Below are positions 8,801-26,785 of a stretch of DNA of 64,000 nt, one piece after another. Numbering within the stretch: position 1 is the first letter of the stretch; every line of letters starts with the position of its first letter. The DNA lies in NCBI RefSeq assembly GCF_019263705.2, contig NZ_JADQDK010000001.1:744001-808000 (forward strand), given 5' to 3'. The translations under genes were made by a program, and so were the position numbers. The notes beneath the pieces were generated by a model. That model did not search any database. It saw only the letters and a program-made list of their open reading frames with translations, and was not told the origin of the DNA. This DNA is from Pseudonocardia abyssalis. GTDB taxonomy: Bacteria; Actinomycetota; Actinomycetes; Mycobacteriales; Pseudonocardiaceae.

Positions 8801-11800
8801 AGCGGCACGTCGGGCTCGAGGTCGTCGGCGTCGACCTCCAGGCTCTCCGCCACCCAGTGGGTGACGGCCTCGACGAGGTTCGGCCCCCGCCGCGCCGGCG
8901 GGACGAGGGCCGCTGTCCCGGCCGGGCCCCCCGGTCCCACGCCCGTCACGAGAGTGCCGTTCGATCCGCCCGGTTGGACGAGAGTGCCGTTCGCCCCGCC
9001 CGGCTGCACGGGAGTGCCGGCCGTCGCCGGGGTGGCGCCGGTCGGCCCGGCCGCTGCGGCCGGGCCGTCCGCCGTGCGGGCCGCGGTGATCCGCTTCCAG
9101 GTCATGCGGTGCACCTGGACGACGGGGCGGTCGCCGTCGAGCACGACCAGGCTCGCGGTGACCAGGTCACCGCCGCCGCCCTCGCGCCGGGCGTACACCC
9201 GGGCGCGGCGGGGGATCGGGCCGAGCACCGACAGCTGCGCCACCGCGAAGGGCACGTACAGCCCCTGCGCGCCGCAGGCGGCGAGCGCCACCTGGAACGC
9301 GCCGTCGAGCAGCCGGGCGTCGACGGGCTCGGTGTCGGTCCCGCCCTCCAGCGTCCCGACGGCCTGTCCGGGCGCGGTGTGCAGCTCCCGCACGCAGCGG
9401 AAGCCGGGGCCGTAGCGCAGGCCGTCGCGCTCGAAGGAGCGGTAGGTCCGGTCGAGGTCGACGGCGGTGAACCCGGCGAGGCCGGGCGGCACCAGGTCGG
9501 GCCGGGGATCGGCGGGGGAGCCGAGCTCGGCGTCGCAGGTCATGGCGCCGGAGCCGTCGCGGAAGACGACCGCCGCACCGTCGACGCGGCCGGTCAGCCG
9601 GGTCGGGGGCCGCACGATCGCGCGGAACGTGATGTCCTCGAGCCCGAACGCGGTCCGGCCGAGCAGCGCCGCGACCTTGCCCGGGTAGGCGGCGCCGGGC
9701 AGCGTCTCCTCGCCGAGGACGACGTGCTCGTCGGCCTCGGTGAGCCGGCTCCACACCAGCCCGCCCGTCCCGTCGGGCTCACCCGGCGCGGTCCACGCCG
9801 CGGGGGCCGCGGGCTCCAGCCACAACCGGGTCGGCTCGTGCGGCGCGGTCGGGAACCGCACTCCCGCCCGTGCGCCGTCGGGGGCCAGGTCCTCGCCGTC
9901 GGCGAAGCGCCGGGCCAGCAGGTCGAGCGCGGCGCGGTCGCCCGCCACGGGCAGCGGCGCGGTCCGGCGGGTGCCGGGGGCCGCGGTACCCGCGTAGGAC
10001 GAGCGGCTCGTGCGCGCACCCGCCAGGAACAGCATCAGCTTGTCCTCGAGCTGCTCCAGGCTCTCCACCACGCACGCGAACCGGTGCGCGGCGGGGGCCC
10101 GGCGCCTGCTCGCGGCGCACAGCGGGGCCAGCGGTGGGCAGTGCGGTGAGCGCAGCAGCAGGACGAGTCGCTCGACGAGCACGTGCAGCGACTCCGCCGA
10201 GCCCGCCGAGAGCGTCAGCAGCCCCGGCCCCTCGACGCCGTCCGGGACGCCCGGGGCGCCCGCGAGCACCACGTGCCCGTTGACGCCGCCGAACCCGAAG
10301 CTGCTCACGCCCGCGACCCGCGGACCGGCCCACGGCACCGTCCGGTCCGGCACGAACAGCGCCGACTCCTCGAACCGGAACCGCGAGTTCGGCACCTCCA
10401 GGTTCGCCGACGCGGGGACGGACCCCGCCTGCAGCGCCAGCACCGTCTTGATCAGCCCGGCCATCCCGGCCGCGGGCTCCAGGTGCCCGACGTTGGTCTT
10501 GACCGACCCGACCGCCACCGACGCCCGCGCCGCCCCGCCGAGCACCGCGTGCAGGGCCTCCAGCTCGATGAGGTCGCCGAGCTGGGTGCCGGTGCCGTGC
10601 GCCTCGATGTAGCCGAGGCCGCCCTCGGGCACGCCCGCCGCGGTCAGCGCCCGGCGGATCACCTCGGTCTGCGCGGTCGCGCTGGGCGCGGTGAGGAACC
10701 CGGAGCTCGCCCCGGTGTGGTTGACGGCGACGCCGCGGACGACCGCGAGCACCGGGTCGCCGTCGCGCTCGGCGTCGGCGAGGCGCTTGAGCACGAGCGC
10801 GCCCGCGCCCTCGCCGCGGACGTAGCCGTCGGCGCCGTCGTCGAAGGCCCGGCAGACCCCGCGCGGGGACAGCATCCCGTTGCGCTTGAACGACCGCGTC
10901 TTCGACGGTGTCAGGATCAGGTTCGCCGCGCCGACCACGGCGGCGTCGATCTCGCCCGCGCGCAGCTGCAGCGCGGCCTGCTGCAGCGCCACCATCGACG
11001 ACGAGCACGCCGTGTCGACGGTCGAGCTGGGACCGGTCCAGTCGAAGGTGTGGGAGAGGCGGTTGGCCAGCATGGAGATCGCGGTGCCGGTCGCGGTGTG
11101 CGGGTCGGCGTGGCCGATGCTCGCCGCGACGATCTCCGGGAAGTCGCTGGCGATCGTGCCGACGAAGACGCCGGTGTTGCGTCCCAGCGTGCGGCTGTCG
11201 TGCCCGCAGCTCTCCAGCGCCTCGTCGGTGACCTCCAGCAGCATCCGCTGCAGGGGGTCCAGGCGGCGGGCCTCGCGCTCGGAGATGCCGAACCGGGCCG
11301 CGTCGAACAGCTCGACGCCGTCGACCCAGCCGGAGGGCACCTCGTCGCCCTCGGTCCAGAGCCCGGCCCAGCCGCGGTGCCCGGCCGGCGCGTCGCCGAC
11401 GTGGGTGCGGCCGGCGGCCAGGTTGGCCCAGAACTCGTCGGGCGTCGCGGCACCGGGGAAGCGGCAGGCCATCCCGATGATCGCGACGGCGTCACCGGAG
11501 CGCTCCTGCGGCGCGGCCGGCTCGGGAACCGGGGCCGGTTCGGGCCCGGCCCCGGACTCGGCGTCCAGGCCCAGCAGCCCCACCAGCTTCGCGGGGGTGC
11601 CGGTGGCGAAGATCGCCGTCGGGCTCACCTCGACGCCCAGCTCCCGACCGAGCGCGGTGGCCGCGATCGTCACGTTGGCGGAGTCGCCGCCGAGGTCGAA
11701 GAAGTTGTCCTCGTCGCCGAGCGGGTCGACGCCGAGCACCTCGCCCAGGATCCGCGCCAGCGCGGCGCCGGGGCGCTCGGCCGGCGGCCCGGCGGTCACG

Positions 11801-14800
11801 GACGGCCCGGCGACGGCCGCGACGGCCGACGGGGCCGCGGTCGGGACGGACACGGGGGCCGTGGGCGTGGCAGGGGCGGGTGCGGTTGGAGTCGGCGCGG
11901 CGGCGATCGGCGCGGCGGGAACGGCAGCCACGGCCGCCGCCCCGCTCCGGATGATCGTCTCCCGCGTCGGCACCGGCAGCCGCGCGCGGTCGGTCTTCCC
12001 GTTGCCGGTGAGCGGCAGGGCGTCGATCGGCACGTAGACCGTCGGCACCATGTACTCGGGCAGGGTCAGCCGGACGGTCGCGTCGAGGTCGGTCTTCGCC
12101 GGCGTCCCGTCCGCCACGAGGTACGCGGTGAGCTGCGGTTCCCCGCGCCCCTCGAACGCCACGGCGACGACGACGGCCGCGGTGACGTCGGCCCGGCCCT
12201 CCAGCGCCCGCTCGATCTCGGCGGGCTCGATGCGGTTGCCCCGCACCTTGACCTGGGCGTCGGCGCGGCCGAGCCACTCCAGCGCGCCGTCGTCGTGCAG
12301 CCGGACCTGGTCGCCGGTGCGGTACTGACGCACCCCGGTGCGCGGGTGGTTCCCGAACACCTCCGCGGTGCGGGCGGGGCGGTGGGCGTACCCGCGGGCC
12401 AGGCCGACGCCGGAGACGAACAGGTCGCCGGTCCCGCCGGGCGCGACGGGACGCAGCTCCTCGTCGAGCACGTGCAGGGCGAGCCCGGGCAGCGGCTCGC
12501 CCAGCGGCAGGAAGCCACCGACCTCGCGCACCCGGTGGCACGACACCCAGATCGTCGCCTCGGTGGGCCCGTAGAGGTTCCACAGCGCGGCGGCCGGCCC
12601 GACGAGTCGCTGCGCCACCTGCGGCGGCAGCGCCTCGCCGCCGGACAGCACGGTCAGGCCGGGGTGCGGCGTCCAGCCGGTCTCCAGCAGGAGCCGCCAC
12701 ATGCTCGGCGTCGCCTGGGCGAAGTCGGTGCCGGTGGTGAGCTCGGCGAGGCGCTGCGGGTCGCGCGCCACCTCCCGCGACGCGAGCACGACGCAGCCGC
12801 CGACGGTCAGCGGCAGCAGCAGCTCCAGCAGCGAGATGTCGAAGGCGGACGTGGTGTGGGCGAGCACCCGGTCGCCCGCGGAGACGCCGAGCACCGGGCC
12901 GATGCCGCCGAGGAAGTTGCCCAGCGCGCCGTGCTCGATCTCGACGCCCTTGGGCTCGCCGGTCGAGCCGCTGGTGAACAGCACGTACGCGAGATCGTCG
13001 ACGGTCGGCACCGGCGGGCACGCCATCGCCGAGCCGTCGTTGCGCGGCACCGCGACGGCCGGGCCGAGCGCGCGGCCCAGCTCCAACGTGCGGGCGTCGG
13101 TGAGGACGAGCTCGGCGCGCGCGACCTCGACGTAGCGGGCGAGGCGCTCGCGCGGATAGGTCGGGTCGAGCGGGAGGAAGGCGGCGCCGGTGCGCAGGAC
13201 GCCCAGCATCGCGGGCAGCAGCTCGGGGCCGCGGTCGGTCATGATCCCGACGACGGACCCGGCGCCGACACCGGTGTCGTAGAGGTGCGCGGCGACGGCA
13301 TCGGCCCACGCGTCGAGCTCGGCGTAGGTCAGGGTGCGCTCGCCGCACCGGACGGCCGGGGCCGCCGGACGCAGGGTCGCGGCGGCCGTGAACTGCTCCA
13401 GCACGGTGGCGGTCGTCGCTCCGGCGGGGACGGGCTCGTCCACCGGGATCCCCGCGACGGCGATCCCGTCCCCGTGCAGCAGCGCGCGCAGCGCCGTCTC
13501 CTCGACCTCGTCGGCGAACTCCAGCGCGGCGTCGGAGTCCATCCAGGTCGCCCGGACGCACACCATCGGCGCCTCGCCGGGCACGCAGACCAGCGCGACC
13601 TCGGTGTCGGGGTCGATCGACGCCTCCTCGCCCGGTGCGCGCTCCAGCACCACGGCGCGGGTGAAGGTGGGGCCGTCGGTGCCGAGCGGGCGGGGGGCGA
13701 GGCCGCTGCGGATCTCCAGGTCGGCGGCGAAGCCGAGCTTCGCCCCCGCCTGCGCGACGGCGTCGGTGAGCGCCCGCGGGTCGGTGGCGTCGAAGCGCAC
13801 CGGCACCCGCAACGCGGCGAGACCGTGCGCGGCGTGGTGCCGGGCGAGCATCTCCGAGGTCGACCAGGCGACGTCGAACGCCCGCGCGCCGGTCCGCCGC
13901 GCGACGACCGCGAGGAACGCCTGGACGACGGTCCGGGTCTCCTCCGGCGACGACGGGCGGTAGGCCAGCTCGAACCGGCCGTAGTACGAGTCGGCGGCGG
14001 AGAAGTCCCGCGCGGGGACGGGCAGCGACACGACGTCGGCGAGGCGTCGGCGCCACCACGGCTCGTGGCGGCGCAGCGGGGCGACCGCGCCGGTGATCGC
14101 CGCGAGCTGCTCCGGCGACGCGGCGGGGAGCTTCGCCCCGGCCGTCAGCCCGAGGCGCTGGGCGGCGGCGCGACCGGACAGCGCGCTGCCGTCGGCGGCC
14201 AGGAACTCCCCGACGACGAGGTCGTCGTCGGGGGCCGACAGCGTGATCGAGCCCCCCGTGACGGACGCGACGATCGTGTCCGGTCGCCCGCCGGAGCGCC
14301 CGACGATGCGCATCTGCCGGGCGAACACCGCCCCCAGCGGCGTGACGAGCGCGGGCAGGCCCAGCGGGTTGGGGAACGAGCCGAAGTCCATCGCCTTCGC
14401 GGTGCGCTCGGCCTCGGCGGCCGAGCAGCCGGCGTGCACCAGCCCGCCGCCCGCCATCCGGTCGGCCTGCAGGAAGAAGCGCCGCTCGCGGCCGGAGGTG
14501 TCGACCGGGTCGGGCAGCTCGCCCGCGGCGAACCGGTCGGCGAGCTCGCCGAACAGCGCGATGCCGGCCTCGGCGGTCTCGTAGGTCAGGGACAGCCCGG
14601 TGGAGTGCGGCCGGATCGGGAACCAGCGCTCGGCCAGCACCGCGCCGGCGTCGACGGCCGCGGCCATCACGTGCCAGGTCGCGGCGTGGCGGCGCTCGCC
14701 GGCGTGGATCGCCCAGGCGGGGACGTGGCTGCCGGAGTAGGCGGGCAGCGGGCCGTCGTGGAAGTTGACCGCCGCCACCTGCGGCAGCGCGAGCACCTCC

Positions 14801-15036
14801 GGGGTGAGGATGCGGAAGTTGACCATGCTGAACAGCAGGTCGAACGGGGCGTCGGACAGGGCGGCGGCCAGGTCGCCGCGCGGGTCGAGGGCCGCGATGT
14901 CGTGCTCGGCGGCCCAGGCGAGGGCGGCGGGGTCGTCGGTGAACACCCCGCGGACGTCGGCCCCCGCGGCGAGGAGCCGGGCGCCGCACTGCGTCAGCAC
15001 CCGGGTCCCGCCGATGAGGTAGCAGCTCGCGCTCAC
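5869..15036 (-). CDS. Hybrid NRPS/PKS: formyltransferase-C remnant-A(Gly)-T-KS-DH-ACP-KS-AT
   Basis: 3055 residues. Domains in order: formyltransferase (1-270, NFHDGPLPAYSG near 90), condensation-like remnant without HHxxxDG (about 280-480), adenylation (about 500-1000, FTSGSTGEPKG near 685), carrier (FFDLGGDSANV near 1115), KS (1180-1590, DTACSSSM, EAHGTGT, NVGHLEPAAG), DH (1770-1980, H-x3-G-x4-P and D-x3-Q intact), ACP (LDSM near 2083), KS (2170-2585, DTLCSSSL) and AT (2690-2975, GHSVGE; HAFH motif predicts malonyl-CoA). The A-domain pocket read by eye is D-I-L-Q-L-G-L-I-W-K, the known glycine code. The predicted starter is therefore N-formylglycine made with 10-formyl-THF. The GTG start at 15036 overlaps the Rieske gene stop (GTGA). 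Longer in-frame starts up to 15318 would lie inside that gene. It ends within a DH domain continued by the next protein. Confidence 0.95.
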   Translation of the reverse strand: MSASCYLIGGTRVLTQCGARLLAAGADVRGVFTDDPAALAWAAEHDIAALDPRGDLAAALSDAPFDLLFSMVNFRILTPEVLALPQVAAVNFHDGPLPAYSGSHVPAWAIHAGERRHAATWHVMAAAVDAGAVLAERWFPIRPHSTGLSLTYETAEAGIALFGELADRFAAGELPDPVDTSGRERRFFLQADRMAGGGLVHAGCSAAEAERTAKAMDFGSFPNPLGLPALVTPLGAVFARQMRIVGRSGGRPDTIVASVTGGSITLSAPDDDLVVGEFLAADGSALSGRAAAQRLGLTAGAKLPAASPEQLAAITGAVAPLRRHEPWWRRRLADVVSLPVPARDFSAADSYYGRFELAYRPSSPEETRTVVQAFLAVVARRTGARAFDVAWSTSEMLARHHAAHGLAALRVPVRFDATDPRALTDAVAQAGAKLGFAADLEIRSGLAPRPLGTDGPTFTRAVVLERAPGEEASIDPDTEVALVCVPGEAPMVCVRATWMDSDAALEFADEVEETALRALLHGDGIAVAGIPVDEPVPAGATTATVLEQFTAAATLRPAAPAVRCGERTLTYAELDAWADAVAAHLYDTGVGAGSVVGIMTDRGPELLPAMLGVLRTGAAFLPLDPTYPRERLARYVEVARAELVLTDARTLELGRALGPAVAVPRNDGSAMACPPVPTVDDLAYVLFTSGSTGEPKGVEIEHGALGNFLGGIGPVLGVSAGDRVLAHTTSAFDISLLELLLPLTVGGCVVLASREVARDPQRLAELTTGTDFAQATPSMWRLLLETGWTPHPGLTVLSGGEALPPQVAQRLVGPAAALWNLYGPTEATIWVSCHRVREVGGFLPLGEPLPGLALHVLDEELRPVAPGGTGDLFVSGVGLARGYAHRPARTAEVFGNHPRTGVRQYRTGDQVRLHDDGALEWLGRADAQVKVRGNRIEPAEIERALEGRADVTAAVVVAVAFEGRGEPQLTAYLVADGTPAKTDLDATVRLTLPEYMVPTVYVPIDALPLTGNGKTDRARLPVPTRETIIRSGAAAVAAVPAAPIAAAPTPTAPAPATPTAPVSVPTAAPSAVAAVAGPSVTAGPPAERPGAALARILGEVLGVDPLGDEDNFFDLGGDSANVTIAATALGRELGVEVSPTAIFATGTPAKLVGLLGLDAESGAGPEPAPVPEPAAPQERSGDAVAIIGMACRFPGAATPDEFWANLAAGRTHVGDAPAGHRGWAGLWTEGDEVPSGWVDGVELFDAARFGISEREARRLDPLQRMLLEVTDEALESCGHDSRTLGRNTGVFVGTIASDFPEIVAASIGHADPHTATGTAISMLANRLSHTFDWTGPSSTVDTACSSSMVALQQAALQLRAGEIDAAVVGAANLILTPSKTRSFKRNGMLSPRGVCRAFDDGADGYVRGEGAGALVLKRLADAERDGDPVLAVVRGVAVNHTGASSGFLTAPSATAQTEVIRRALTAAGVPEGGLGYIEAHGTGTQLGDLIELEALHAVLGGAARASVAVGSVKTNVGHLEPAAGMAGLIKTVLALQAGSVPASANLEVPNSRFRFEESALFVPDRTVPWAGPRVAGVSSFGFGGVNGHVVLAGAPGVPDGVEGPGLLTLSAGSAESLHVLVERLVLLLRSPHCPPLAPLCAASRRRAPAAHRFACVVESLEQLEDKLMLFLAGARTSRSSYAGTAAPGTRRTAPLPVAGDRAALDLLARRFADGEDLAPDGARAGVRFPTAPHEPTRLWLEPAAPAAWTAPGEPDGTGGLVWSRLTEADEHVVLGEETLPGAAYPGKVAALLGRTAFGLEDITFRAIVRPPTRLTGRVDGAAVVFRDGSGAMTCDAELGSPADPRPDLVPPGLAGFTAVDLDRTYRSFERDGLRYGPGFRCVRELHTAPGQAVGTLEGGTDTEPVDARLLDGAFQVALAACGAQGLYVPFAVAQLSVLGPIPRRARVYARREGGGGDLVTASLVVLDGDRPVVQVHRMTWKRITAARTADGPAAAAGPTGATPATAGTPVQPGGANGTLVQPGGSNGTLVTGVGPGGPAGTAALVPPARRGPNLVEAVTHWVAESLEVDADDLEPDVPLQEQGLDSMLAVSLAQDLRARLGVEIPVTLVLEVGTIEALVEELRTEYGVTGAPSEPSEQEPAPEVVAAPEPAAPVRSLQVAAEPAPVTDRHDIAIVGMDGVFPGAADADALWDVLIGERDCLREVPAERWNLDEYYSDDATPGTVYLRRAGFVDDLTAFDAPFFRIAPNEAKWIDPQQRHLVQSAWRAMEDAGLSGRTEGRAVGVYVGASYQHYRDQVVGDVVQTAAGLGNHNAILANRVSYFLDLHGPSMTIDTLCSSSLVALHTAVRSLRDGECEAAVVAGVHMAMSPQYFQLGSRLRSFSPTGSSRAFDNDADGFVPGEGVVTMILKPLVDARRDGDRVHAVIKGTAVNHGGRTNGLTVPNSTAQHDVVTAALRDAGVEPDTIAMLEAHGTGTPLGDPIEVDGLTRAWRRHTDRTQFCAIGSLKTNIGHLEPAAGLAGLTKILLALRHETIPPTLHVDRPNDHIRFEETPFYPATGPVPWLRGGAPRRAALSAFGMGGVNAHVVIEEAPARETVAEIEGESHVLRLTAPTEDGVRALAGRYAEHVTGHPGTGLGDLTYTANTGRTPHRFRTAVVAGTRDELVAALGAVASGTTPVVKHSHRPAPPVTFLFTGQGSQYAGMGRALYATEPVFRDAIDECAQHLPGLTDLLHGERSAELTRTDHAQAGIVATQVALVRLLAAWGVRPDHVAGHSVGELTAAWAAGVLTLPDLLRLVAQRGAAMNAQPSTGSMAVVHADADATAAALAGFGDLEIAAHNSPTNTTVSGPAESLARFRAACAHPVTPLTVSHAFHSAAMAGAVEPFAEALAATTLRAPVIPFASTLTGALHTPESAADPRSYAEAIRRPVLFAPAVRALHEVAGDGHTWWEIGPHPVLAPLTGQLLAGVSRTAPTCRTTLHRTGGAAHLHQNLVAHHNGGATQVDLAGHHAGKPHRTVSAPTYPFDRRPLSALPSPTTDDEAGHPFFDRLFSRSEES

Positions 15037-16202
15037 GGCCGGGCCCCCTGCTCCCGCTCGGCCGGGGCGGTCTCGCGCGCCACCCAGGCGTCGATCTGGG
15101 CGACGACCTCCTCGTCGAGCGAGAGCTGACCCGGTGACCACATCGGGTTCGACAGGCCGCGGTGTGTGCGCTCGCACAGCTCCCAGTCCTCGTAGTTGGC
15201 CTTGTCCCACAGCGCGAACACGGCCTCGTGCGAGAAGTCCTCCTTCCTCGTCTCCGACGGGTGGAACAGCCAGAAGTGCCGCACCGTGCAGGTGCCCGGC
15301 CCCTCGGGCCACACCCACTGCGCCATCACGTAGTCGGCGGTGAAGCCGAACAGCAGGTTCGGCATGATCGTGATCCAGTTGATCTTCTGGAGGTCGCCCT
15401 CCGGCACGCTCGGGATCGGGGACCGGGCGCTCGTGCCGGTCATCGACACGGAGTTGTACTTGTCCCGGATGACCTGCCAGGCGCCGACGATGTCACCGGT
15501 CAGCTCGTAGGTGCCCGCGTCGTCGAAGTCGGTGACACGGTGCAGGTCCTTGTGCGCCGTCGGGAAGTGCAGGCTCTCGTTGACGTTGTGCGCCACCAGC
15601 TTCCAGTTCGACGCGACCGGGTAGTCCTTCCACTGGACGACCTCGAGGTCGGCCAGCTCGTAGGCCTCCGCGAACGCCCCGAACTCGCCGAGGGACTCGT
15701 CGAGGTCGGGGGCGTCCTCGGAGAAGGCGACGAACACGATGCCGAACCGGATCTCGGTCCGGATCGTGATGAGCCCGTTCTCCTCCCGGTCGAAGAAGTG
15801 GTCGAAGTACGTGCCGTTGTTGCTCTTCAGTCCGCCGTTGCGGTCGTAGACCCAGCAGTGGTAGAGGCAGACCACGCTCTGCCGCTTGCCCTGCGGCTCC
15901 TCCACCAGCTTGTACCCGCGGTGCCGGCAGTAGTTGTGGTAACCGCGGATCCCCTCGTCGCCGTGCATCAGGAGAACGGATCCCGTCCCGATGTCGAGGG
16001 TCGTGTACGACCCCTTCTCCGACAATCGGGAGACGTGGTCCACGGGCAGCCAGCGGCGGCCGTAGATCTGCGCCATCTCGCGGCGGTGCTGCTCCTCACC
16101 GGTGTAGAACTCGTGCGACCGACCGGTTCCGCCCGTCTCGAAGTAGGGCCGTTCCGGATCCTGGTCGCCGATGCGGTCGAACATGCTGGACGGGCTGGAC
16201 AT
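15033..16202 (-). CDS. Rieske non-heme iron oxygenase (choline monooxygenase-like alpha subunit)
   Basis: 389 residues, normal length for the family. The Rieske [2Fe-2S] ligands are seen as CRH and CLYHC near residues 90-115. The catalytic iron site shows the N-x-N-E-x2-H-x4-H pattern (NVNESLHFPTAH), as in the choline/carnitine monooxygenase branch, with a late Asp ligand in EDWELCERTHRGL. A separate reductase is expected but none is adjacent; the FprA homologue at 35.9 kb could serve, which is only a guess. A clear AGGAGA ribosome site precedes the ATG. The gene is translationally coupled to the NRPS/PKS by GTGA, so it most likely tailors the product or a precursor. The substrate cannot be read from sequence. 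Confidence 0.93.
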   Translation of the reverse strand: MSSPSSMFDRIGDQDPERPYFETGGTGRSHEFYTGEEQHRREMAQIYGRRWLPVDHVSRLSEKGSYTTLDIGTGSVLLMHGDEGIRGYHNYCRHRGYKLVEEPQGKRQSVVCLYHCWVYDRNGGLKSNNGTYFDHFFDREENGLITIRTEIRFGIVFVAFSEDAPDLDESLGEFGAFAEAYELADLEVVQWKDYPVASNWKLVAHNVNESLHFPTAHKDLHRVTDFDDAGTYELTGDIVGAWQVIRDKYNSVSMTGTSARSPIPSVPEGDLQKINWITIMPNLLFGFTADYVMAQWVWPEGPGTCTVRHFWLFHPSETRKEDFSHEAVFALWDKANYEDWELCERTHRGLSNPMWSPGQLSLDEEVVAQIDAWVARETAPAEREQGARP

Positions 16203-16244
16203 CGCGTTCTCCTAGAACGGTGGGAAAGGAGTGGAAAGGGGAGC

Positions 16245-17483
16245 TCAGGCGGTCGGGTCGTAGACGCGGCGGTCCTCGGGGAGACCGGCGTCGTCGTAGA
16301 GGGCCTGGAGCCCCTCGGCGGAGAAGATCGCGTCGTCGTCGACACCGCCGGCGATCCAGCCGAGCATCGTGGTGGTCCACGCGTCGGTCGCGGCGACGGC
16401 TTCGAGTACCGCCTGGAAGAACGGCGGGAGCTCGCCCAGCTCGGCGACGGTGGTCGTGTAGTCGTACATCACCGCGGTCTCCTCGTCGCGGGTCTTGGCG
16501 AACTCGGCCAGCGCCTCGTCCATCGGCCGCAGTCCGGCCAGGCCCTCGTGCACGCGCTCGGCGAGCTGCTCGGCGTGGATGAAGGAGTCGCTCATGCCCC
16601 AGCCGGTGAGCGGGTCCTTGTGGTAGCCGGCGTCGCCGACCAGCGCCCAGCCCGGGCCGAACGCCTGGCGGTAGAAGTTGTCGGGGTAGCGCATCGCGAT
16701 GAACGGGTCGGTGCGGGTCGCGTCGCGCAGCTGCCCGCCGATCGCGGGCAGGATCGCGTCGACGGTGGACTGGAAGTTGCCGGGCACGTCCTGGCGGAAC
16801 TCCTTGATCTGCGCCTTCGTCGCCATGACGCTGACCAGCGTGCCGCCGTTCGTCGGCCATGCCCCCGCCCAGCGCCCGTTCGTCCCGGTGTGGTGCTGGA
16901 GGCCGGCGCTGTCGACGCCCTCGAAGTAGGAGTAGTAGGCGGCGCCCGCAGCCGGGCGGACGTTGTAGAGCGGGGCCTCGACGCGCTTGGCCACCGTCGA
17001 GTGGGCCCCGTCGGCCCCGATCACGATCGGCGCGCGGAACTCCGTCTCCGGCCCGTCGCCGACGCGCCCGCGGACGCCGGCGACCGCACCGTCGGCCCAG
17101 ATCAGGTCGGACACGGTGAACGACTCGAGCACCTCGGCGCCCGCCCGGCGCGCGGCGTTCACGAGGATCTCGTCGAGCACGATCCGGCGCGGGCAGTAGA
17201 CCGCGTCGACGCCGTCGATCGGGTCGGCGAACCCGCTGAACGCGACCCCGCGGTGCGAGTAGCTCATGCGCCGCGCCGCGGGGGTGCCCGCGGCGACCAG
17301 CTCGTCGAGCAGGCCCCAGCTCTGCAGCCGCGCGACGCCCGCCTGGTGCATGTAGTGCGTCGAGACCGTGTCGCTCGGGAACGACGCGCGGTCGACCACC
17401 AGCACGCGGTGACCCTGCCGGGCGAGAAGCATGGCGAGCGGCGATCCGGCGCAGCGCGCCCCCACAACGATGGCGTCGTACAT
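16245..17483 (-). CDS. FAD-dependent monooxygenase / oxidoreductase
   Basis: 412 residues. An N-terminal dinucleotide-binding fold is seen in VVGARCAGSPLAMLLAR, followed by the DR strand end (VLVVDRASFP) and the late FAD motif GWALVGDAGYHKDPLTGWG around residue 290. These identify a group A flavoprotein of the geranylgeranyl-reductase/halogenase/aromatic hydroxylase superfamily. No halogenase WxWxIP motif is visible. It is the first gene of the minus-strand biosynthetic operon, 42 nt before the Rieske oxygenase, with a GAGGAG ribosome site before its ATG. It is probably a tailoring enzyme of the polyketide; the exact reaction is unknown. Confidence 0.9.
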   Translation of the reverse strand: MYDAIVVGARCAGSPLAMLLARQGHRVLVVDRASFPSDTVSTHYMHQAGVARLQSWGLLDELVAAGTPAARRMSYSHRGVAFSGFADPIDGVDAVYCPRRIVLDEILVNAARRAGAEVLESFTVSDLIWADGAVAGVRGRVGDGPETEFRAPIVIGADGAHSTVAKRVEAPLYNVRPAAGAAYYSYFEGVDSAGLQHHTGTNGRWAGAWPTNGGTLVSVMATKAQIKEFRQDVPGNFQSTVDAILPAIGGQLRDATRTDPFIAMRYPDNFYRQAFGPGWALVGDAGYHKDPLTGWGMSDSFIHAEQLAERVHEGLAGLRPMDEALAEFAKTRDEETAVMYDYTTTVAELGELPPFFQAVLEAVAATDAWTTTMLGWIAGGVDDDAIFSAEGLQALYDDAGLPEDRRVYDPTA

Positions 17484-17548
17484 GAACGTTCTCCTCTGCT
17501 GGAAACCCTGGGTGAGAGCTTCTTGGTACGCAGTCGCCGGGGCCGTCG

Positions 17549-17594
17549 CTGCTCAGATCTGAGCGTTCGGGGAGAAGTCGCACGGCTGCTCAGA
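17549..17594. promoter_or_regulatory. Candidate operator in the divergent promoter region
   Basis: The 190-nt gap between the FAD monooxygenase (minus) and accD (plus) holds a perfect 14-bp palindrome GCTCAGATCTGAGC at 17551-17564. A second copy of its left arm, CTGCTCAGA, lies at 17586-17594 (first copy 17549-17557). The arrangement suggests binding of a dimeric regulator controlling one or both divergent operons. The regulator is unknown. Confidence 0.5.
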
Positions 17595-17674
17595 ATTGCG
17601 CGGGAAGGGCCGCCGGCTGTCGTTACCTTCGCCCGGATCGACACGTATCTCGGACCGAGGGGAAGTGGCTGGTT

Positions 17675-19267: not shown

Positions 19268-19473
19268 TGGGAGCCCCGATGACGCCCGTACCGGACATCA
19301 GGATCGTCGCCGGCCACCCGAGCGACGAGGAGCTCGCGGCCGTCGTGGCGGTGCTGGGGACGCTGCTCGCCGCGCGGTCGGCGCCCGCGCCCACCCCGCC
19401 GCGGCACCGTGCGCGGCGGGCACGGGTCACGTGCACCGCGGTGCGCAGGCGCGCGGGTTCAGTCGTCGGATAG
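19267..19473 (+). CDS. accE: Acyl-CoA carboxylase epsilon subunit
   Basis: 68 residues from the ATG at 19267, which shares one base with the accD stop (TGATG). An in-frame ATG at 19279 is an alternative. The core PDIRIVAGHPSDEELAAVVA followed by an Arg-rich tail matches the small epsilon subunits that stabilise actinobacterial AccA-AccD complexes (family pattern x-G-x-P-S/T-D-E-E-L-A-A). Its last codons overlap the first heptamer of the SARP-type box upstream of crp, so that promoter starts within this gene's end. Confidence 0.85.
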   Translation: MGAPMTPVPDIRIVAGHPSDEELAAVVAVLGTLLAARSAPAPTPPRHRARRARVTCTAVRRRAGSVVG

Positions 19474-19500
19474 GGACTCGATAGGCTGAACTCCTAGCTT
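19467..19500 (+). promoter_or_regulatory. SARP-type promoter upstream of the Crp-family gene
   Basis: Direct heptamers CGGATAG (19467-19473) and TCGATAG (19478-19484) sit 11 bp apart start to start, with a 4-nt spacer. They are followed after exactly 10 nt by the -10-like hexamer TAGCTT (19495-19500). SARP regulators are known to bind heptamer direct repeats spaced by 11 bp close to the -10. The same layout recurs at 20463-20507. Confidence 0.6.
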
Positions 19501-19585
19501 TCTGGTCACGGACAGCGACCGGGCTCGCGCCCCCTCGCCGACCACCACCCGGAAGCGCTCGCCCACGAGCGCCCCCCTTCGCCAC

Positions 19586-20371
19586 ATGGAGGACGCGTTG
19601 AGCGAGCCGCTGTCGACCACGATGACGGTCCGGGGGATCCGGCCGGGACCGGCCCCGTCCCGGCCGGCCCCGGCCCCGAACGCGTCGGTGGTGAGCGGGT
19701 TCGGCGGGCAGCTGGCCGGGCTCATCGCCGACCGGACGGTGCCCTCGACCCAGGTCCGCTTCGACGCCGGGACGTCGATCTACGGCGGCGGCCCGCACCC
19801 CGACGAGTCGGTCTACCTGCTCACGGCCGGCCGGGCCAAGACGGTGATGTACTCCCGGTCCGGGCGCCGGTGCCTGCTGCGGATCCACAGCCCCGGTGAG
19901 GTGCTCGGCGAGCTCGCGATCCTGGGCGGGGAGCGCACCGAGACGGCGATCGCGATGTCCCCGAGCGTGGTCCAGCGGGTCGCGGTCAGCCACCTGCTGC
20001 GGCTCATGGGCTCGCCCGCCGTGCACCGGCACCTGATCCGGCACCTGGGGGAGCGGCTCGCCGAGCAACAGCGGGCGATCAGCCACCTGGTGGGTGACGA
20101 CAGCGAGCACCGCCTCGGCGTCACCCTTCTCGACCTGGCCGAACGCCTCGGGAAGCCCGAGCGCGACGCCGAGCACGACGCGGTGCGCATCGCCCAGCGG
20201 ATCACGCAGGAGGAGCTCGCCGGCATGGTCGGCACGACCCGTTCGCGGATCGGCTTCTTCCTGCGCCGCTTCCAGGAGTGCGGGGCCGTGGAGTTCAGCC
20301 GCGGTCACGTGATCCGGGTGCGCTCCCAGCGCCTCGGCGACTACCTGGAGTCCCGCCTCGACGCCTGCTGA
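19586..20371 (+). CDS. Crp/Fnr-family transcriptional regulator
   Basis: 261 residues from ATG 19586. An in-frame TTG at 19598 follows a GGAGGA stretch at 19588-19593 with a short 4-nt gap, so the real start may be the TTG. A cyclic-nucleotide-binding-like barrel occupies about 45-155 (GEVLGELAILGG), and a Crp-type winged helix lies near 205-250 (TQEELAGMVGTTRSRIG). The sensed signal is unknown. The promoter carries SARP-type boxes, placing it under the neighbouring SARP by inference, and a strong terminator follows the gene. The N-terminal 35 residues are low-complexity Pro/Ala-rich. Confidence 0.92.
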   Translation: MEDALSEPLSTTMTVRGIRPGPAPSRPAPAPNASVVSGFGGQLAGLIADRTVPSTQVRFDAGTSIYGGGPHPDESVYLLTAGRAKTVMYSRSGRRCLLRIHSPGEVLGELAILGGERTETAIAMSPSVVQRVAVSHLLRLMGSPAVHRHLIRHLGERLAEQQRAISHLVGDDSEHRLGVTLLDLAERLGKPERDAEHDAVRIAQRITQEELAGMVGTTRSRIGFFLRRFQECGAVEFSRGHVIRVRSQRLGDYLESRLDAC

Positions 20372-20396
20372 CCCCTTCCCTCGTCCCCCGATCCCG

Positions 20397-20425
20397 CAGC
20401 CCGACCGGTCCTCCCGGTCGGGCTG
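20397..20425 (+). terminator. Rho-independent-like terminator after the Crp gene
   Basis: A perfect 12-bp stem (CAGCCCGACCGG at 20397-20408 with its complement at 20414-20425) encloses the 5-nt loop TCCTC. It begins 25 nt after the stop of the Crp gene. There is no U-tract, as is usual in high-GC actinobacteria. Confidence 0.75.
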
Positions 20426-20462
20426 TCGGCGTCTGTGGGCCGCCGGGAACCCGGCTCGAGGA

Positions 20463-20507
20463 TCGATAGAGAAGCGATAGAGGACCGATGTGACTTGGTC
20501 ATAGCTT
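20463..20507 (+). promoter_or_regulatory. SARP-type promoter upstream of the secreted small peptide gene
   Basis: Three direct heptamers TCGATAG (20463-20469), GCGATAG (20474-20480) and CCGATGT (20485-20491) lie at exact 11-bp periodicity. They are followed 10 nt later by TAGCTT (20502-20507), the same hexamer at the same distance as upstream of crp. Transcription would start near 20514, leaving a 5' UTR of about 60 nt before the ATG at 20572. Confidence 0.7.
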
Positions 20508-20571
20508 TACCAACGTCAGGGAGAGAGATGAGAAAGCCGACACCCACCGCAGTACTCCGAAGGGACACGTC

Positions 20572-20709
20572 ATGCGACGGATCGCCCGCTCCATCGTCCT
20601 GCTCGCCGCTGCCGCCGGCCTCGTGCTCGGCGGGCTGGGGGAGCCGCTCAAGCCCCGCGGCCCCCTGGACGGCGGTTCCACCACCAACGGCAACACCGCC
20701 TGGGGCTGA
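20572..20709 (+). CDS. Small secreted peptide (45 aa) beside the SARP gene
   Basis: The product is 45 residues: MRR, a hydrophobic stretch rich in Leu/Ala/Gly (residues 4-21), then a polar tail EPLKPRGPLDGG followed by STTNGNTAWG. This looks like a signal peptide or single membrane anchor plus a short exported tail with no Cys. An AGGGA ribosome site sits 7 nt before the ATG. The gene converges on the SARP gene and is preceded by three SARP-type heptamers. By position it recalls afsS, the small target gene of AfsR, but there is no visible sequence similarity. It could be a signal or export peptide; the function is unknown. Confidence 0.65.
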   Translation: MRRIARSIVLLAAAAGLVLGGLGEPLKPRGPLDGGSTTNGNTAWG

Positions 20710-20740
20710 GCCGCCGTGACGTGACGCAGCGTGACCGATC

Positions 20741-23700
20741 TCAGGTCGCTGCGGGACCCGCGAGCCGCTGCTCGAGGTCCAGCGTCAACCGGCCGGTGAA
20801 GGCCGGAGCGGTGCTCCTCAGGTGCTCCAGAGCCGCGGTCCACTGCTGCACCGCGCTCTCGTGCCGGCCCTCCGCGGCGTCGGCGTCACCGAGGGCCGTC
20901 AGGCAGCCCGCCGTCAGCACCGGGAGATCGATCTCCCCGGAGGCGTCGAGCGCCTCCTCGGCCCGTTCCCGGGCCGCCGGCACGTCCCCGCCGGCCAGCG
21001 CGACGGCGCTGAGCGACAGCAGTGCCCGCACGCGGATGCGCAGCTCGGCCAGCTCGCGCGCCATGCGCTCGGCCGCGACCAGTGCGGTGCGCGCCGCACC
21101 GATCTCCGCACGGGCGATGTGCGCCTGACCCAGACCCAGCAGGCCGTACGCCTCGGCGGTGCGGTCGCCGACGTCGCCCGCGAACTCCAGCACCGCCGAG
21201 AACGACTCCAGGGCGAGGTCGCCCGCCCCCTGCTGCAGCTGGATCTCCCCGAGCCGGTGCATCACCTGCGCCCCGACCCGGCGGTTCGGGATCGTCCGGC
21301 AGATCTCCGCCGCCGCCTGCAGGCGGGTCTGGGCGTCGTCCTCGTGCCCGATGTCCAGGTCGACCTGGGCGAGGTTGCTCAGCACGTAGGCCTCGCCCGC
21401 GCGGTCACCGGTCGTCCGGAAGATCTCCAGCGCCTGCTCGTTGCGGGTGCGGGCCCGGGAGTAGTGCGCCGTGACCCGGTCGACGAAGGCCTGGTTGCGG
21501 ATGACCATCGCCATCCCCTCGTCGTTGCCGAGCTCGGTGAACGTGGCGAGCGCGGCGTCGAGGCACTCCTCGGCCTCGGCGAAGCGCTGCTCGAACATGT
21601 GCAGCGACCCCAGCGAGTAGGTCATCACGGCCTCGCCGAGGCGGTCGCGGTCGCGGCGGGCGGCGGCCAGCCCGAGGTCGTGGGTGGCCCGCCAGTCGTC
21701 GAACAGGGCGTGGGCCTCGAACAGCACGACGGAGCTGATCGCCAGGTCCCAGCACAGCGACCCGAGACCGGCCGCCGAGGCCTGGGCCACCGCGGCCACC
21801 AGCGCCTGGCGCTCACGGGCGAGCCACAGCAGGGGCTGGGCCATGAGCGAGGTGCGGAGCCGTTCGCCCAGCGGGTGGCGGTGCGCGTCGCCGTGGACGA
21901 TGAGGAAGTCGCCGCCGTACTCCCGGCGGTGGGCCTCCTCGGCGAGGCCGAGCATCGCCCCGAGGTACCGGGCGACGGCCGCGGCGCGGTCCGTCGCGGG
22001 GTCCTCGGCGACGGCGCGCTCCCGCGCGAAGAGCCGGACCAGGTCGTGCAGGTGGTAACGGGTGCCGCCGACGTCGCCGTCCGGGTCGATCTCGATGTCG
22101 ACGAGGTGCAGCTCGACGAGCTCGTCGAGCTGGTCCTCCGCGGTGCGGTGGTCGACGTCGAGCAGGGCCGCACAGGCCCACGCCCCGACGTGCGGGGTGT
22201 CGATCATCGCGAGCAGCCGCAGCAGGCGGCAGGCCTCCGGTTCGAGGGCCTCATAGGTGAGCAGCAGGCTCGCGCGCACCGCCATGTCGCCGTGTCGCAG
22301 CTCGTCGAGCTGGATCGTCTCGTCGGACAGGCGGTCGACCATCGTGCGCAGCGACCAGTGCGGGCGGGCGGCCAGGCGCGCCGCGGCGATCCGGACGGCG
22401 AGCGGCAGGTGCCCGCACAGCCGTACCAGCTCGACGGCCGCCTCGCGGTCGTCGGAGATGCGCGTCCCGCCGATCACCCGGTCCAGCAGGGCGACCGCGC
22501 TCTCGGTGGTGAACGACTCCAGCTGGACCCGCTCGGCGCCGGGGAGCGCGGTGAGCCGCCTGCGGCTGGTGAGCAGGACGGCACTGCCCCGGTCGGGCGG
22601 CAGCAGCGGGACGACCTGCGCCTCCTGGCCGACGTCGTCGAGCACGATCACGACGGAGCGGCCCGACAGGCGGCTGCGGTACAGCTCCGCGCGCTCGTCG
22701 AGGTCGTCGGGGATGGTGCTGCCGGGCACCCCCAGCGCGCGCAGGAACCGGGCGATCACCTCCGCGGGGGCCACCGGCCGGGAGGCGCCGTGCAGGCTCG
22801 CGTAGAGCTGGCCGTCGGGGAAGCGGTCGGCGAGGCGGTGCGCGAGGTGCAGCGCGAGGGCGGACTTGCCGATCCCGCCCTGCCCGGTGAGGACCACGAC
22901 CGCGGGCGCGGCGGGCGTGTCGCGCTCCGCGGAGATCTTCCCCAGCACCTCGGCGATGGCCCGGGTGCGGCCGGTGAAGTCGGCGACCTCCGCCGGCAGC
23001 ATCCGCGGGGCCGAGCTCGCCGGCGGCGGCGGGGCCTCGGCGCGGCGCCCGTTGCGCGCGACGACGATCGAGTCGTCCTCGCGCAGGATCGCCTGCTCGA
23101 GGCGCCGCAGCGGCTCGGCGGGCTCGATGCCCAGCTCGTCGATCGACAGCTGCCGCGCGCGGCGGAACTCGCGCAGCGCGTCGGCCTGGCGCCCGGCCCC
23201 GTAGAGGGCGAGCATCAGCTGCCCGCGCAGCTCCTCACGCAGCGGATAGCGGTCGATCTCCTTCGTGAGGACGGCGACGAGGTCGCGGTGGTTGCCCATC
23301 CGCAGCTGGGCGTCGGCGAACTCCTCGACGACCCGGGCCCGCTCCTCCTCCAGGTGCGTGGCGGCGTCGCGGACGGCGAGGCTCTCGATCCCCGGGAGCG
23401 CGGACCCCCGCCAGCGGGCCAGCGCCGTGCGGAACAGGTCCGCAGCGTCGCCCAGCCGGTCGTGCTGGACGTGGTCCCTGGCCAACGCCACCTCGGTGGC
23501 GAAGAGCTGCCGGTCGAACTCGGCGGACCCGGCGTCGAGCAGGTACCCGGGGCGCCGGGTGGTGATCACCTCGGTCCGGGCGTCGGACCCCAGGCGCTGC
23601 CGCAGGCTCGACACGCAGATCTGGATCTGGCTGCGCGCCGTGGCGGGCGGGGAGTCCGGCCACACGGCGTCGACCAGGCGGTCGACGGACACCACGTGCG

Positions 23701-23809
23701 GCGACTCGAGCAGCAGCATCGCCAGGACGATCTGCTGCCGCGGACCTCCGAGATCGACCGTGCCGCCGCCGCGCAAGACTTCGAGCGGCCCGAGGACTCG
23801 AAACTCCAC
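20741..23809 (-). CDS. AfsR-like SARP regulator with BTAD, NB-ARC and TPR domains
   Basis: 1022 residues. An OmpR-like winged helix and bacterial transcriptional activation domain cover about 1-245 (start EFRVLGPLEVLRGGG). An NB-ARC ATPase follows (about 285-560, P-loop GQGGIGKSALALHLAH, VVIVLDDVG), then a long C-terminal TPR array (about 690-1000, repeated MHRLGEIQLQQG-type helices). This is the full architecture of AfsR-type pleiotropic activators of secondary metabolism. The GTG start is chosen because GGGAGG precedes it by 7 nt. Three promoters carrying SARP-like heptamers surround the gene (19467, 20463, 23976), which suggests it controls its neighbours. No such box is seen in front of the PKS operon. 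Confidence 0.95.
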   Translation of the reverse strand: MEFRVLGPLEVLRGGGTVDLGGPRQQIVLAMLLLESPHVVSVDRLVDAVWPDSPPATARSQIQICVSSLRQRLGSDARTEVITTRRPGYLLDAGSAEFDRQLFATEVALARDHVQHDRLGDAADLFRTALARWRGSALPGIESLAVRDAATHLEEERARVVEEFADAQLRMGNHRDLVAVLTKEIDRYPLREELRGQLMLALYGAGRQADALREFRRARQLSIDELGIEPAEPLRRLEQAILREDDSIVVARNGRRAEAPPPPASSAPRMLPAEVADFTGRTRAIAEVLGKISAERDTPAAPAVVVLTGQGGIGKSALALHLAHRLADRFPDGQLYASLHGASRPVAPAEVIARFLRALGVPGSTIPDDLDERAELYRSRLSGRSVVIVLDDVGQEAQVVPLLPPDRGSAVLLTSRRRLTALPGAERVQLESFTTESAVALLDRVIGGTRISDDREAAVELVRLCGHLPLAVRIAAARLAARPHWSLRTMVDRLSDETIQLDELRHGDMAVRASLLLTYEALEPEACRLLRLLAMIDTPHVGAWACAALLDVDHRTAEDQLDELVELHLVDIEIDPDGDVGGTRYHLHDLVRLFARERAVAEDPATDRAAAVARYLGAMLGLAEEAHRREYGGDFLIVHGDAHRHPLGERLRTSLMAQPLLWLARERQALVAAVAQASAAGLGSLCWDLAISSVVLFEAHALFDDWRATHDLGLAAARRDRDRLGEAVMTYSLGSLHMFEQRFAEAEECLDAALATFTELGNDEGMAMVIRNQAFVDRVTAHYSRARTRNEQALEIFRTTGDRAGEAYVLSNLAQVDLDIGHEDDAQTRLQAAAEICRTIPNRRVGAQVMHRLGEIQLQQGAGDLALESFSAVLEFAGDVGDRTAEAYGLLGLGQAHIARAEIGAARTALVAAERMARELAELRIRVRALLSLSAVALAGGDVPAARERAEEALDASGEIDLPVLTAGCLTALGDADAAEGRHESAVQQWTAALEHLRSTAPAFTGRLTLDLEQRLAGPAAT

Positions 23810-23975
23810 GCGACTGCCTCCCGAGGACCGGATCCCGATTCAACCATCGGGTGCCCGCCATCACCTCATCGAGAGGGCAAGTTCATCTGATCTTGGCCTG
23901 TGGTGGACCGAGCGCGATGCACCGGCGCGTCGGTTACCTCGAACGGCCCAGCCGGGAGTCGGCGTCGCGCTGGTC

Positions 23976-24020
23976 CGGATAGCCGATGGATAGCCGATGG
24001 ATCGCCCCCGGCGCCACCCT
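23976..24020 (+). promoter_or_regulatory. SARP-type boxes upstream of the HIUase-like gene
   Basis: Heptamers CGGATAG (23976-23982), TGGATAG (23987-23993) and TGGATCG (23998-24004) repeat at exactly 11 bp. After 10 nt comes CACCCT (24015-24020), a weak -10-like hexamer at the same distance as in the other two boxes of this locus. The site lies in the 252-nt divergent region between the SARP gene and the HIUase-like gene. Confidence 0.55.
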
Positions 24021-24061: not shown

Positions 24062-24400
24062 GTGCCACTGACAGTGGAGGTCGTGGACCTCACCCACGGT
24101 CGACCCGCCAGCGACGTCCGGGTCGGGCTGGAGTGCTCCGACGGCTCCGTCTGGACGGCCGTGGCCTCCGCGTCGACCGACGAGTCGGGCCGGATCGACG
24201 ACTGGGGCGGGGCGGACGGGCACGACCGCGACCTGCGCCTGGTCATCGACGCCCGGCGGTACTTCGCCGCCCAGGGGCTGCTGTCGTCGCAGGCCGACAT
24301 CACGATCGCCGTCGGCCCGACGTCACCGTGGACCGTCCGCCACGTGCCGGTCCTGCTCGCCCCGTTCGGCTACAGCACCTACACGGGCCTGTCGTCCTGA
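24062..24400 (+). CDS. Transthyretin/5-hydroxyisourate hydrolase-like protein with altered active site
   Basis: 112 residues, the normal HIUase length. The family fold is visible: PLTVEVVDLTHGRPASDVRV at the start, TDESGR in the middle and HVPVLLAPFGYSTYTG at the end. However, the N-terminal catalytic His of the HVLD strand is replaced (VEVVD), and the C-terminal YRGS signature reads YTGL. The Arg of the DGR-type motif and the late His are kept. Classical HIUase chemistry (ureide pathway) is therefore doubtful. The GTG start is preceded by an AAGGAGG site. It forms a probable operon with purU and is preceded by SARP-type repeats. Confidence 0.8.
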   Translation: MPLTVEVVDLTHGRPASDVRVGLECSDGSVWTAVASASTDESGRIDDWGGADGHDRDLRLVIDARRYFAAQGLLSSQADITIAVGPTSPWTVRHVPVLLAPFGYSTYTGLSS

Positions 24401-25484: not shown

Positions 25485-26024
25485 ATGGACACGACCCCGA
25501 CGCTCCCCACCGTCTCGGCGAGCGACCTCACCCTGACCACCGTCCCCGCCCGCACGCTGCTCGTCGTCGACGGCCGCGGGGGCGCCGAGGGGCTCCCGTT
25601 CGCCGCGGCCGTGCGGGCCCTGTTCCGCGCCCGGGCCGCCCTCGGAGCGCCGATGGGGGTGCCGCTGGAGGGCACCTACGCGCAGGACGGCGACCCGCTG
25701 CGCTTCCACCTCGACGAGCCCGCCGGCTGGCACTGGACCCTCGCCGTCCCGGCGCCGGAGGGCTGCACGGCCCGGACGGTGGCGGCCCTGGACCACGTGG
25801 CGCCGGTCGCGCTGCGGGTCCAGGGTGGGCACCGGGCGGCGCAGCTCGTGCACGCCGGCCGGTACGAGGACGAGGCGCCCTCGCTCGCCGCGCTCTACGG
25901 CTTCGTCGCCGGGCGCGGGCTGCGCCCGGCGGGGGCGCACACCGAGGTGTACCTGACCGACCCGACGGTGACCGAGCCGTCGCGCAACCGCACGATCCTC
26001 CGGGTGCCGGTGTGGACGGCCTGA
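25485..26024 (+). CDS. GyrI-like small-molecule-binding domain protein
   Basis: 179 residues with a single GyrI/SOUL-like ligand-binding fold: VPARTLLVVDGRGG near the N-terminus, the GGHRAAQLVHAGRYED strand-turn near 115, and the late TEVYLTDP motif. Such proteins bind hydrophobic ligands or act as effector domains without DNA-binding parts. The next gene, a MerR regulator with its own GyrI-type C-terminus, overlaps its stop codon (TGATG), so the two are co-translated. They may sense the same class of compound. Function is inferred from the fold pattern only. Confidence 0.8.
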   Translation: MDTTPTLPTVSASDLTLTTVPARTLLVVDGRGGAEGLPFAAAVRALFRARAALGAPMGVPLEGTYAQDGDPLRFHLDEPAGWHWTLAVPAPEGCTARTVAALDHVAPVALRVQGGHRAAQLVHAGRYEDEAPSLAALYGFVAGRGLRPAGAHTEVYLTDPTVTEPSRNRTILRVPVWTA

Positions 26025-26785
26025 TGCCGATCGGGGCGTTCGCGCGCCTGGCCCGGCTCACCGTCAAGGCCGTCCGGCACTACGACGCCGAGGGGCTGCT
26101 CGCCCCGGCGCACGTCGACCCGCACTCCGCCTACCGCTACTACCGCGCCGACCAGGTGCGCACGGCCACCACGATCGTGGTGCTGCGCGGCATGGACGTG
26201 CCGCTGCCCGTGGTCCGGGAGGTGCTCGCCGCCCCGGACACCGACGCGGTGAGCACCGTGCTGGGCCGGGAGCGGGAGAAGCTGCGCGAGGAGCTCGCCC
26301 GGCGCGAGGAGGTCCTGCGCAACCTCGACGGCCTGCTGCGCCGCCCCGAGCGCGTCCGGTACGACGTGGCGATCGGCGAGCGGGAGCGGCAGATCGTCTC
26401 GGGGGTCTCGGGGGTCGTCCGGGCCGCGTCGATCGACGACGACACCGGTGCGCTCTGGCGCGGGGCCTGCGCGCTGACGACCTCGCGTGCGCCGCTGGTG
26501 GCGGTGTTCCCGCTGGACCTGACCGACGAGTTCGAGACGCTGGTCGGTCTGCCCGGGCCCACCGCGGAGGGGGCGCACGTCGTGCTGCCGGCCGGGCCGT
26601 GGGCCACGACGCTGCACGTCGGGCCGTACCCGGAGCTGCCGATGGCCTACACGGCCCTGCTCGAGCACGTCCGGGAGCGCGGGCACGTGCCGCTCGGCCC
26701 GGTCACGGAGACCTACCTGGCGGGCCCGGACGCGGTGGGGACCGAGGACCTGGTGACCCGCCTAGGAGTAGCCCTCACCCCCTGA
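26024..26785 (+). CDS. MerR-family regulator with GyrI-like effector domain
   Basis: 253 residues from the ATG that overlaps the previous stop (TGATG); an upstream in-frame GTG at 26012 is less likely. The MerR winged helix is at 1-75 (MPIGAFARLARLTVKAVRHY, YRYYRADQV). A coiled-coil dimerisation helix covers about 78-115, and a GyrI-like ligand domain about 120-253 ends with TETYLAGPD. This is the BmrR/TipA-like layout of multidrug-responsive activators. Targets are unknown. No MerR-type 19-bp spacer promoter was recognised immediately upstream. Confidence 0.9.
   Translation: MPIGAFARLARLTVKAVRHYDAEGLLAPAHVDPHSAYRYYRADQVRTATTIVVLRGMDVPLPVVREVLAAPDTDAVSTVLGREREKLREELARREEVLRNLDGLLRRPERVRYDVAIGERERQIVSGVSGVVRAASIDDDTGALWRGACALTTSRAPLVAVFPLDLTDEFETLVGLPGPTAEGAHVVLPAGPWATTLHVGPYPELPMAYTALLEHVRERGHVPLGPVTETYLAGPDAVGTEDLVTRLGVALTP

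Follow-up and report, generated by a model that had tools for sequence, protein, structure and literature searches.

Large SARPs and their repeat operators

The described systems closest to the present locus are AfsR–afsS of Streptomyces coelicolor and PimR–pimM of Streptomyces natalensis. In the first, as presented in passages of PMC10936776, a large SARP with NOD and TPR domains is paired with 11-bp direct repeats that precede a poor promoter; in the AfsR complex, the box extends from −40 to −19, the −10 element of afsS is CACTGT, and the distance from the 3′ repeat to the −10 element in SARP promoters is 8 bp. The base-contacting residues named in the same passages are T88 and R92, of which R92 reads a T (PMC10936776). 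In the second system, according to excerpts of PMC5930380, a large SARP is associated with a heptamer triplet, spaced by 4 nt, in a second regulator's promoter.

Here, we analyze a locus of a Pseudonocardia-like bacterium in which, judging from the DNA, an AfsR-type activator probably controls three neighboring promoters through a repeated heptamer at a fixed distance. The window is the whole stretch of DNA analyzed, 64 kb long. A literature search over titles and abstract openings returned nothing on this locus, on an NSGATAG heptamer or on an HIUase-like/PurU regulon.

Three operators around an AfsR-like gene

The SARP gene and the operators on either side of it are arranged as follows.

19467..19500, + strand: operator/promoter 1, before a Crp-family gene; CGGATAG (19467-19473), TCGATAG (19478-19484), 10 nt, TAGCTT (19495-19500)
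20463..20507, + strand: operator/promoter 2, before a 45-aa peptide gene; TCGATAG (20463-20469), GCGATAG (20474-20480) and CCGATGT (20485-20491) in 11-bp steps, 10-nt spacer, TAGCTT (20502-20507)
20741..23809, − strand: large SARP, AfsR-like; Pfam Trans_reg_C, BTAD, NB-ARC (NOD) and TPR
23810..23920, no strand assigned: sequence upstream of the SARP gene; identity with genome G056 94.6%
23976..24020, + strand: operator/promoter 3, before the genes of an HIUase-fold (HIU-like) protein and PurU; CGGATAG (23976-23982), TGGATAG (23987-23993) and TGGATCG (23998-24004) in 11-bp steps, 10-nt spacer, CACCCT (24015-24020)

Operator 1 has, in addition, a degenerate third repeat, GGTTCAG (19456-19462), upstream of CGGATAG. 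A sequence-only reading of this DNA had proposed three SARP-type promoters around one AfsR-like gene, and all heptamers and hexamers, with their 11-bp steps and 10-nt gaps, lie where it placed them. Their assignment as SARP-type promoters is supported by the absence of exact sites elsewhere in the genome, by conservation in G056, by recurrence near related SARPs and by a hexamer geometry common to 11 of 11 operators. No heptamer doublet was found on the SARP strand upstream of the SARP gene itself, where the best candidate has three mismatches, and direct autoregulation of the SARP was dropped on this ground. Nor was any exact SARP site found in the window before the genes of the adjacent NRPS-PKS cluster.

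The N-terminal part of the protein scores above the Pfam cutoffs for the OmpR-type DNA-binding and BTAD domains of the SARP family (Trans_reg_C 38.2 bits, cutoff 26.2; BTAD 123.3 bits, cutoff 22.1), and the C-terminal part has the domains of a large AfsR-type regulator (NB-ARC 47.3 bits, TPR_12 64 bits). Its best PDB matches are AfsR chains, aligned over residues 2-954 with an E value of 5.9e-124. The score against the NCBIfam AfsR equivalog NF053617 is 557.3 bits, under the cutoff of 1430, and the protein is therefore called AfsR-like, not AfsR. The NOD-TPR part also matches, under the respective cutoffs, NCBIfam HaaT (a cyclophane RiPP TPR protein; E 1.4e-93) and the FxSxx-COOH system TPR protein, both of which, by name, come from small-peptide systems.

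Rarity of the repeats

In the window, SGATAG-N5-SGATAG has three exact matches, which are operators 1–3, all on the + strand. A genome-wide scan, of the kind that the sequence-only reading had called for, returned, for exact SGATAG-N5-SGATNG, four matches in 6.3 Mb, all at these three places. The reversed-pattern control gave two, which arise because GATAGS-N5-GATAGS can also be read at the Crp and HIU sites. The earlier description of the regulon as self-contained holds only in the sense that the scan turned up no additional exact sites. At one mismatch, SGATAG-N5-SGATAG has seven matches in the genome (four at the locus, three elsewhere) and the control also seven; therefore, the exact matches alone carry weight. 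The exact doublet is present in seven of 62 congeneric genomes, with three instances at the present locus, two in G056 and one in each of five more.

SGATNG-N5-SGATNG followed after 10 nt by NANNNT has 48 matches in the genome, of which two, the Crp and HIU sites, are exact, and the peptide site is one of 46 one-mismatch matches; the control gave two. With a weight matrix, the best doublets of the operators score 21.9-23.1, and 100 first-order Markov surrogates, each 64 kb long, reach no more than 18.3; this comparison is circular in that the matrix was trained on the scored sites. One-mismatch triplets in the 62 congeneric genomes are at chance level (47 places versus 94 in the reversed control). 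Eight of the 47 places are near SARPs with operators or their G056 copy; wider surroundings were taken for 10 regions and the remainder judged through short loci, and 6 of 30 short loci retained from that search contain a SARP match.

Conservation in a congeneric genome

The sole ortholog of the SARP found is in G056 (91% identical), the next long matches among 60 congeneric genomes being 39-45% identical. The HIU-like gene, too, has a close copy in G056 and in no other of the 62 genomes of the genus. The sequence-only reading had offered loss of the repeats alongside retained genes as grounds for rejecting it; in G056, the repeats are kept. Operator 1 is identical through its hexamer (34 of 34 bases), next to an upstream flank that is 85.6% identical. 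Operator 2 differs at 2 of 39 columns (20463-20501) and its upstream flank at 44 of 115. In operator 3, the heptamers differ at 2 of 29 columns, the hexamer at none and the spacer at 4 of 10, so that its sequence is altered and its 10-nt length kept. Overall, operators and hexamers are retained and most flanks have diverged. The coding regions of the locus are 88-93% identical to G056, and operators 2 and 3 thus stand out against their upstream flanks, not against the genes.

Recurrence near related SARPs

Of the six SARPs at other loci of the genus that most resemble the present one, five have NSSRTAG triplets close by. Three genomes (G057, G001 and G037) have two divergent triplets each, the first before an alpha/beta-hydrolase gene adjoining the SARP and the second before a GMC oxidoreductase gene. 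The G057 hydrolase and the G001 and G037 oxidoreductases were examined with Pfam, and the remaining hydrolases and oxidoreductases were read from their translations. G043 and G053 have a single triplet each, before a whiB gene immediately downstream of the SARP. Around the SARP that is the sixth homolog (G001, locus L040), no convincing operator was found in a 20-kb stretch; one loose doublet lies at 3569. The 62 congeneric genomes hold two exact triplets, those of G053 and G057, both near similar SARPs.

The exact composite, repeats followed after 10 nt by NANNNT, occurs five times in 390 genomes of the family and not at all in the reversed control. Three of the five lie near a SARP that matches over nearly the full length, and one of these belongs to another genus (G105). 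The SARP of G105 is 40% identical over nearly its full length, its recognition helix, AQIQICISALRR, resembles that of the present SARP, SQIQICVSSLRQ, and its operator (GCGATAG + CCGATAG) lies before an ornithine-cyclodeaminase-like gene, a match under the Pfam cutoff. For the exact composites of G079 and G285, no SARP match lies closer than about 10 kb in either direction. The G079 site (locus L193, 10006, − strand), an exact triplet with NANNNT, lies just before the candidate starts of a secreted-looking frame of 1305 aa. A scan of a genome-contig collection with the SARP as query, from which near records may be left out, returned no relative.

At the places of AfsR T88 and R92, the present SARP has I and S in our own reading of the PDB alignment. 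The R92 place holds Ser, Ala, Gln or His in the SARP rows with TAG-type triplets and is not Arg in nine of nine; it is also non-Arg in 9 of the 23 other rows, those without a known TAG triplet, and the correlation is therefore suggestive only. The TAG-type large SARPs formed no single supported clade in a tree.

TAG-type triplets also occur in pairs about 6 kb apart in G021 (locus L135, 6410+ and 12495−), where the pair adjoins a stand-alone ketoacyl-synthase gene, and in G061 (locus L136, 6662+ and 12902−). A small SARP lies 6-15 kb from these triplets (loci L147 and L152). Such neighbors, together with the six matches to the SARP query in the present genome, would fit operators bound by a different SARP of the same genome and not by the one encoded between them. 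We consider this unlikely: exact sites occur nowhere else in the genome, and in five other genomes of the genus and one from a different genus, triplets of this kind lie near the SARP's closest homologs.

The operators might also belong to another OmpR-fold regulator that recognizes 11-bp direct repeats, for example a PhoP-like response regulator, PhoP boxes being 11-nt direct repeats as well. The PhoP unit is GTTCACC, however, unlike the GATAG core; a housekeeping regulator should have numerous sites, whereas exact ones are confined to three places; and in other genomes the triplets lie near SARPs. A PhoP-like regulator is accordingly given little credence, and control by the AfsR-like SARP remains the preferred reading.

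Promoter geometry

In 11 of 11 operators from six genomes, a NANNNT hexamer begins 10 nt past the last heptamer. For ten of them (three from the present locus and seven near homologs), NANNNT is found at offset 10 in ten of ten and at each other offset from 0 to 25 in zero to two; the eleventh, the G037 minus-strand triplet with GATCAT at offset 10, was first listed regardless of its hexamer. The eleven are not independent, G043/G053 and G001/G037/G057 being related groups, and the register of the G001 minus-strand site was chosen by the analyst. Left out of the count were shifted registers of counted sites, two window matches without a hexamer (51894 and 33400) and a site with another heptamer in G009 (locus L029, 4056+). 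The last consists of TCGGAAG, GGGGAAG and TCGGAAG in 11-bp steps, 10 nt and CACACT, just past another SARP match, and perhaps represents the same geometry with a different heptamer. Counter to the general rule, none of the four G021 and G061 triplets has NANNNT at 10 nt.

The hallmark of SARP-dependent promoters, 11-bp direct repeats at a fixed distance from a −10 element, is present at this locus. The classical SARP repeat element is TCGAG; if its AG is aligned with that of NSSRTAG, the 10 nt counted here would equal the published 8 bp.

Direct repeats of equal spacing are easily spotted by eye in 64 kb, and the pattern no longer exceeds chance once it is loosened, as would be expected of chance repeats or relics without a role. 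Yet the exact sites are confined to the locus and conserved in G056, the hexamer keeps one offset in all eleven operators, and the arrangement recurs near homologous regulators. Chance is thus the least credible explanation, and we regard it as extremely improbable beside operators of the AfsR-like SARP.

Predicted target genes

The genes downstream of the three operators are listed below.

19598..20371, + strand: Crp/Fnr-family regulator; Pfam cNMP_binding and HTH_Crp_2
20572..20709, + strand: 45-aa peptide gene; no Pfam family
24062..24400, + strand: transthyretin/HIUase-fold protein with an altered active site (HIU-like); PF00576
24445..25437, + strand: PurU-type formyltetrahydrofolate deformylase; TIGR00655
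25485-26024, + strand: GyrI-like protein; Pfam
26012-26785, + strand: MerR/GyrI-like regulator; Pfam

The Crp gene more likely starts at TTG 19598 than at ATG 19586, since the ATG is lost in G056 and GGAGG precedes the TTG.

Like afsS, which encodes a small protein, the second target is short. The 45-aa product has a hydrophobic, signal-like N-terminal stretch (judged by eye) and ends in STTNGNTAWG. The reading frame looks like a real gene because its differences from the G056 counterpart are four synonymous changes and a single patch that includes a 3-nt, in-frame indel, because divergence sets in right past the stop and because an upstream ATG is not retained. Its one relative among about 5.8 billion proteins is the G056 copy, for which the source gives the organism as Pseudonocardia petroleophila. 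When small ORFs of the same kind (a hydrophobic start and Trp close to the end) were sought within 1.5 kb of SARP matches, only the peptide and its ortholog were credible; candidates at loci L014 and L030, which came through a strict small-ORF filter, were judged by eye not to be genes.

HIUases are marked by a catalytic N-terminal His and a YRGS end. The third target, a 112-aa protein, has Glu/Gln at the place of the His and a YTGLSS-type end in place of YRGS, and scores 68.6 bits against the HIUase equivalog TIGR02962, under the cutoff of 87.45. Of the earlier label 'HIUase-like', the transthyretin fold (PF00576) therefore stands and the HIUase identity does not. By sequence clustering, the protein is a member of a rare group of seven, the six others coming from 'lgn' or 'ena' sources; His and YRGS are absent from all seven and present in P0008, a source-named HIUase. 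A second homolog in the genome is 38% identical (C1:5125045).

PurU, which the sequence-only reading had counted in the regulon, is borne out as a gene assignment by TIGR00655 (302.1 bits, cutoff 285.95), and it probably shares one operon with the HIU-like gene. Two further close PurU-like genes in the genome are 70% and 49% identical. The gap from purU to the GyrI-like gene is 47 bp, and the GyrI-like and MerR/GyrI-like genes may possibly be distal members of the same operon.

The adjacent NRPS-PKS cluster

2-17483, − strand: NRPS-PKS cluster, left of the regulon

One ORF of the cluster, 3149 aa long, encodes formyltransferase, adenylation, DH and AT domains and two KS domains; genes for a Rieske oxygenase and an FAD monooxygenase precede it. 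An open frame of 2154 aa extends beyond the left edge of the window. Of 62 genomes, the Rieske gene (E up to 1e-60) is found in two, the same two that have the regulon, a pattern compatible with linkage but also with shared ancestry alone. The divergent promoter at 17484-17674, between the FAD monooxygenase gene and a carboxyltransferase gene, was searched for a Crp site and contains a perfect palindrome, GCTCAGATCTGAGC (17551-17564), and a second, TGCTCAGA, at 17587. As a Crp site, GCTCAGATCTGAGC is a weak lead only: it does not look like a Crp box and has one change in G056.

Proposed mechanism and significance

We hold it to be very likely, on sequence evidence, that the AfsR-type SARP switches the three local promoters through NSGATAG heptamers. 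Its OmpR-type DNA-binding and BTAD domains would bind the heptamers side by side, cooperatively and on one face of the DNA, and the bound SARP would recruit RNA polymerase to weak promoters, each with its −10 element (TAGCTT or CACCCT) 10 nt beyond the final heptamer. The transcripts switched together would be three: those of the Crp regulator, of the 45-aa, presumably exported peptide and of the transthyretin-like/PurU operon. By analogy with AfsR, NOD and TPR may hold the SARP domain back until a signal arrives. The Crp protein would act as a second tier on further genes, most plausibly those of the adjacent NRPS-PKS cluster; such a tier is plausible, much as PimR acts through PimM according to excerpts of PMC5930380.

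It is conceivable, albeit doubtful, that the peptide is the ligand of the TPR domain and closes a peptide-signaling loop. If so, the SARP would induce its own pheromone along with the Crp regulator as a second tier and the effector operon; the whole would be a quorum-sensing circuit of the SARP/NOD/TPR type that serves an antibiotic cluster.

As far as searched, the regulon appears new in its parts and its heptamer, ordinary in principle and well supported by sequence. Within it, a Crp regulator is combined with a small peptide that looks exported and a non-canonical transthyretin-fold protein, next to an NRPS-PKS cluster that includes a formyltransferase. The regulon also suggests an 'address' for SARPs that can be tested: NSSRTAG repeated every 11 bp, then 10 nt and NANNNT. 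With candidate specificity residues in the recognition helix, this address could aid SARP target prediction in rare actinobacteria; the exact-site set is small, three promoters in the genome, and can be tested in full.

Comparison with known systems

The afsS −10 element CACTGT is, like CACCCT of operator 3, a NANNNT hexamer (passages of PMC10936776). The present locus differs from AfsR–afsS in its NSGATAG heptamer, in the replacement of T88 and R92, in having three targets at one locus and in falling under the AfsR equivalog cutoff. PimR, as described in the excerpts of PMC5930380, is unlike the present SARP in its LAL-type C-terminal half, its unique target and its heptamer CGGCAAG, and its operator does not overlap the −35 box. 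Among the target products, the HIU-like protein shares family, length and the FGYSTY near the C-terminus with HIUase (TIGR02962) and bacterial transthyretin-like proteins, and the group of seven to which it belongs is set apart from HIUase by lacking both the YRGS end and the N-terminal His.
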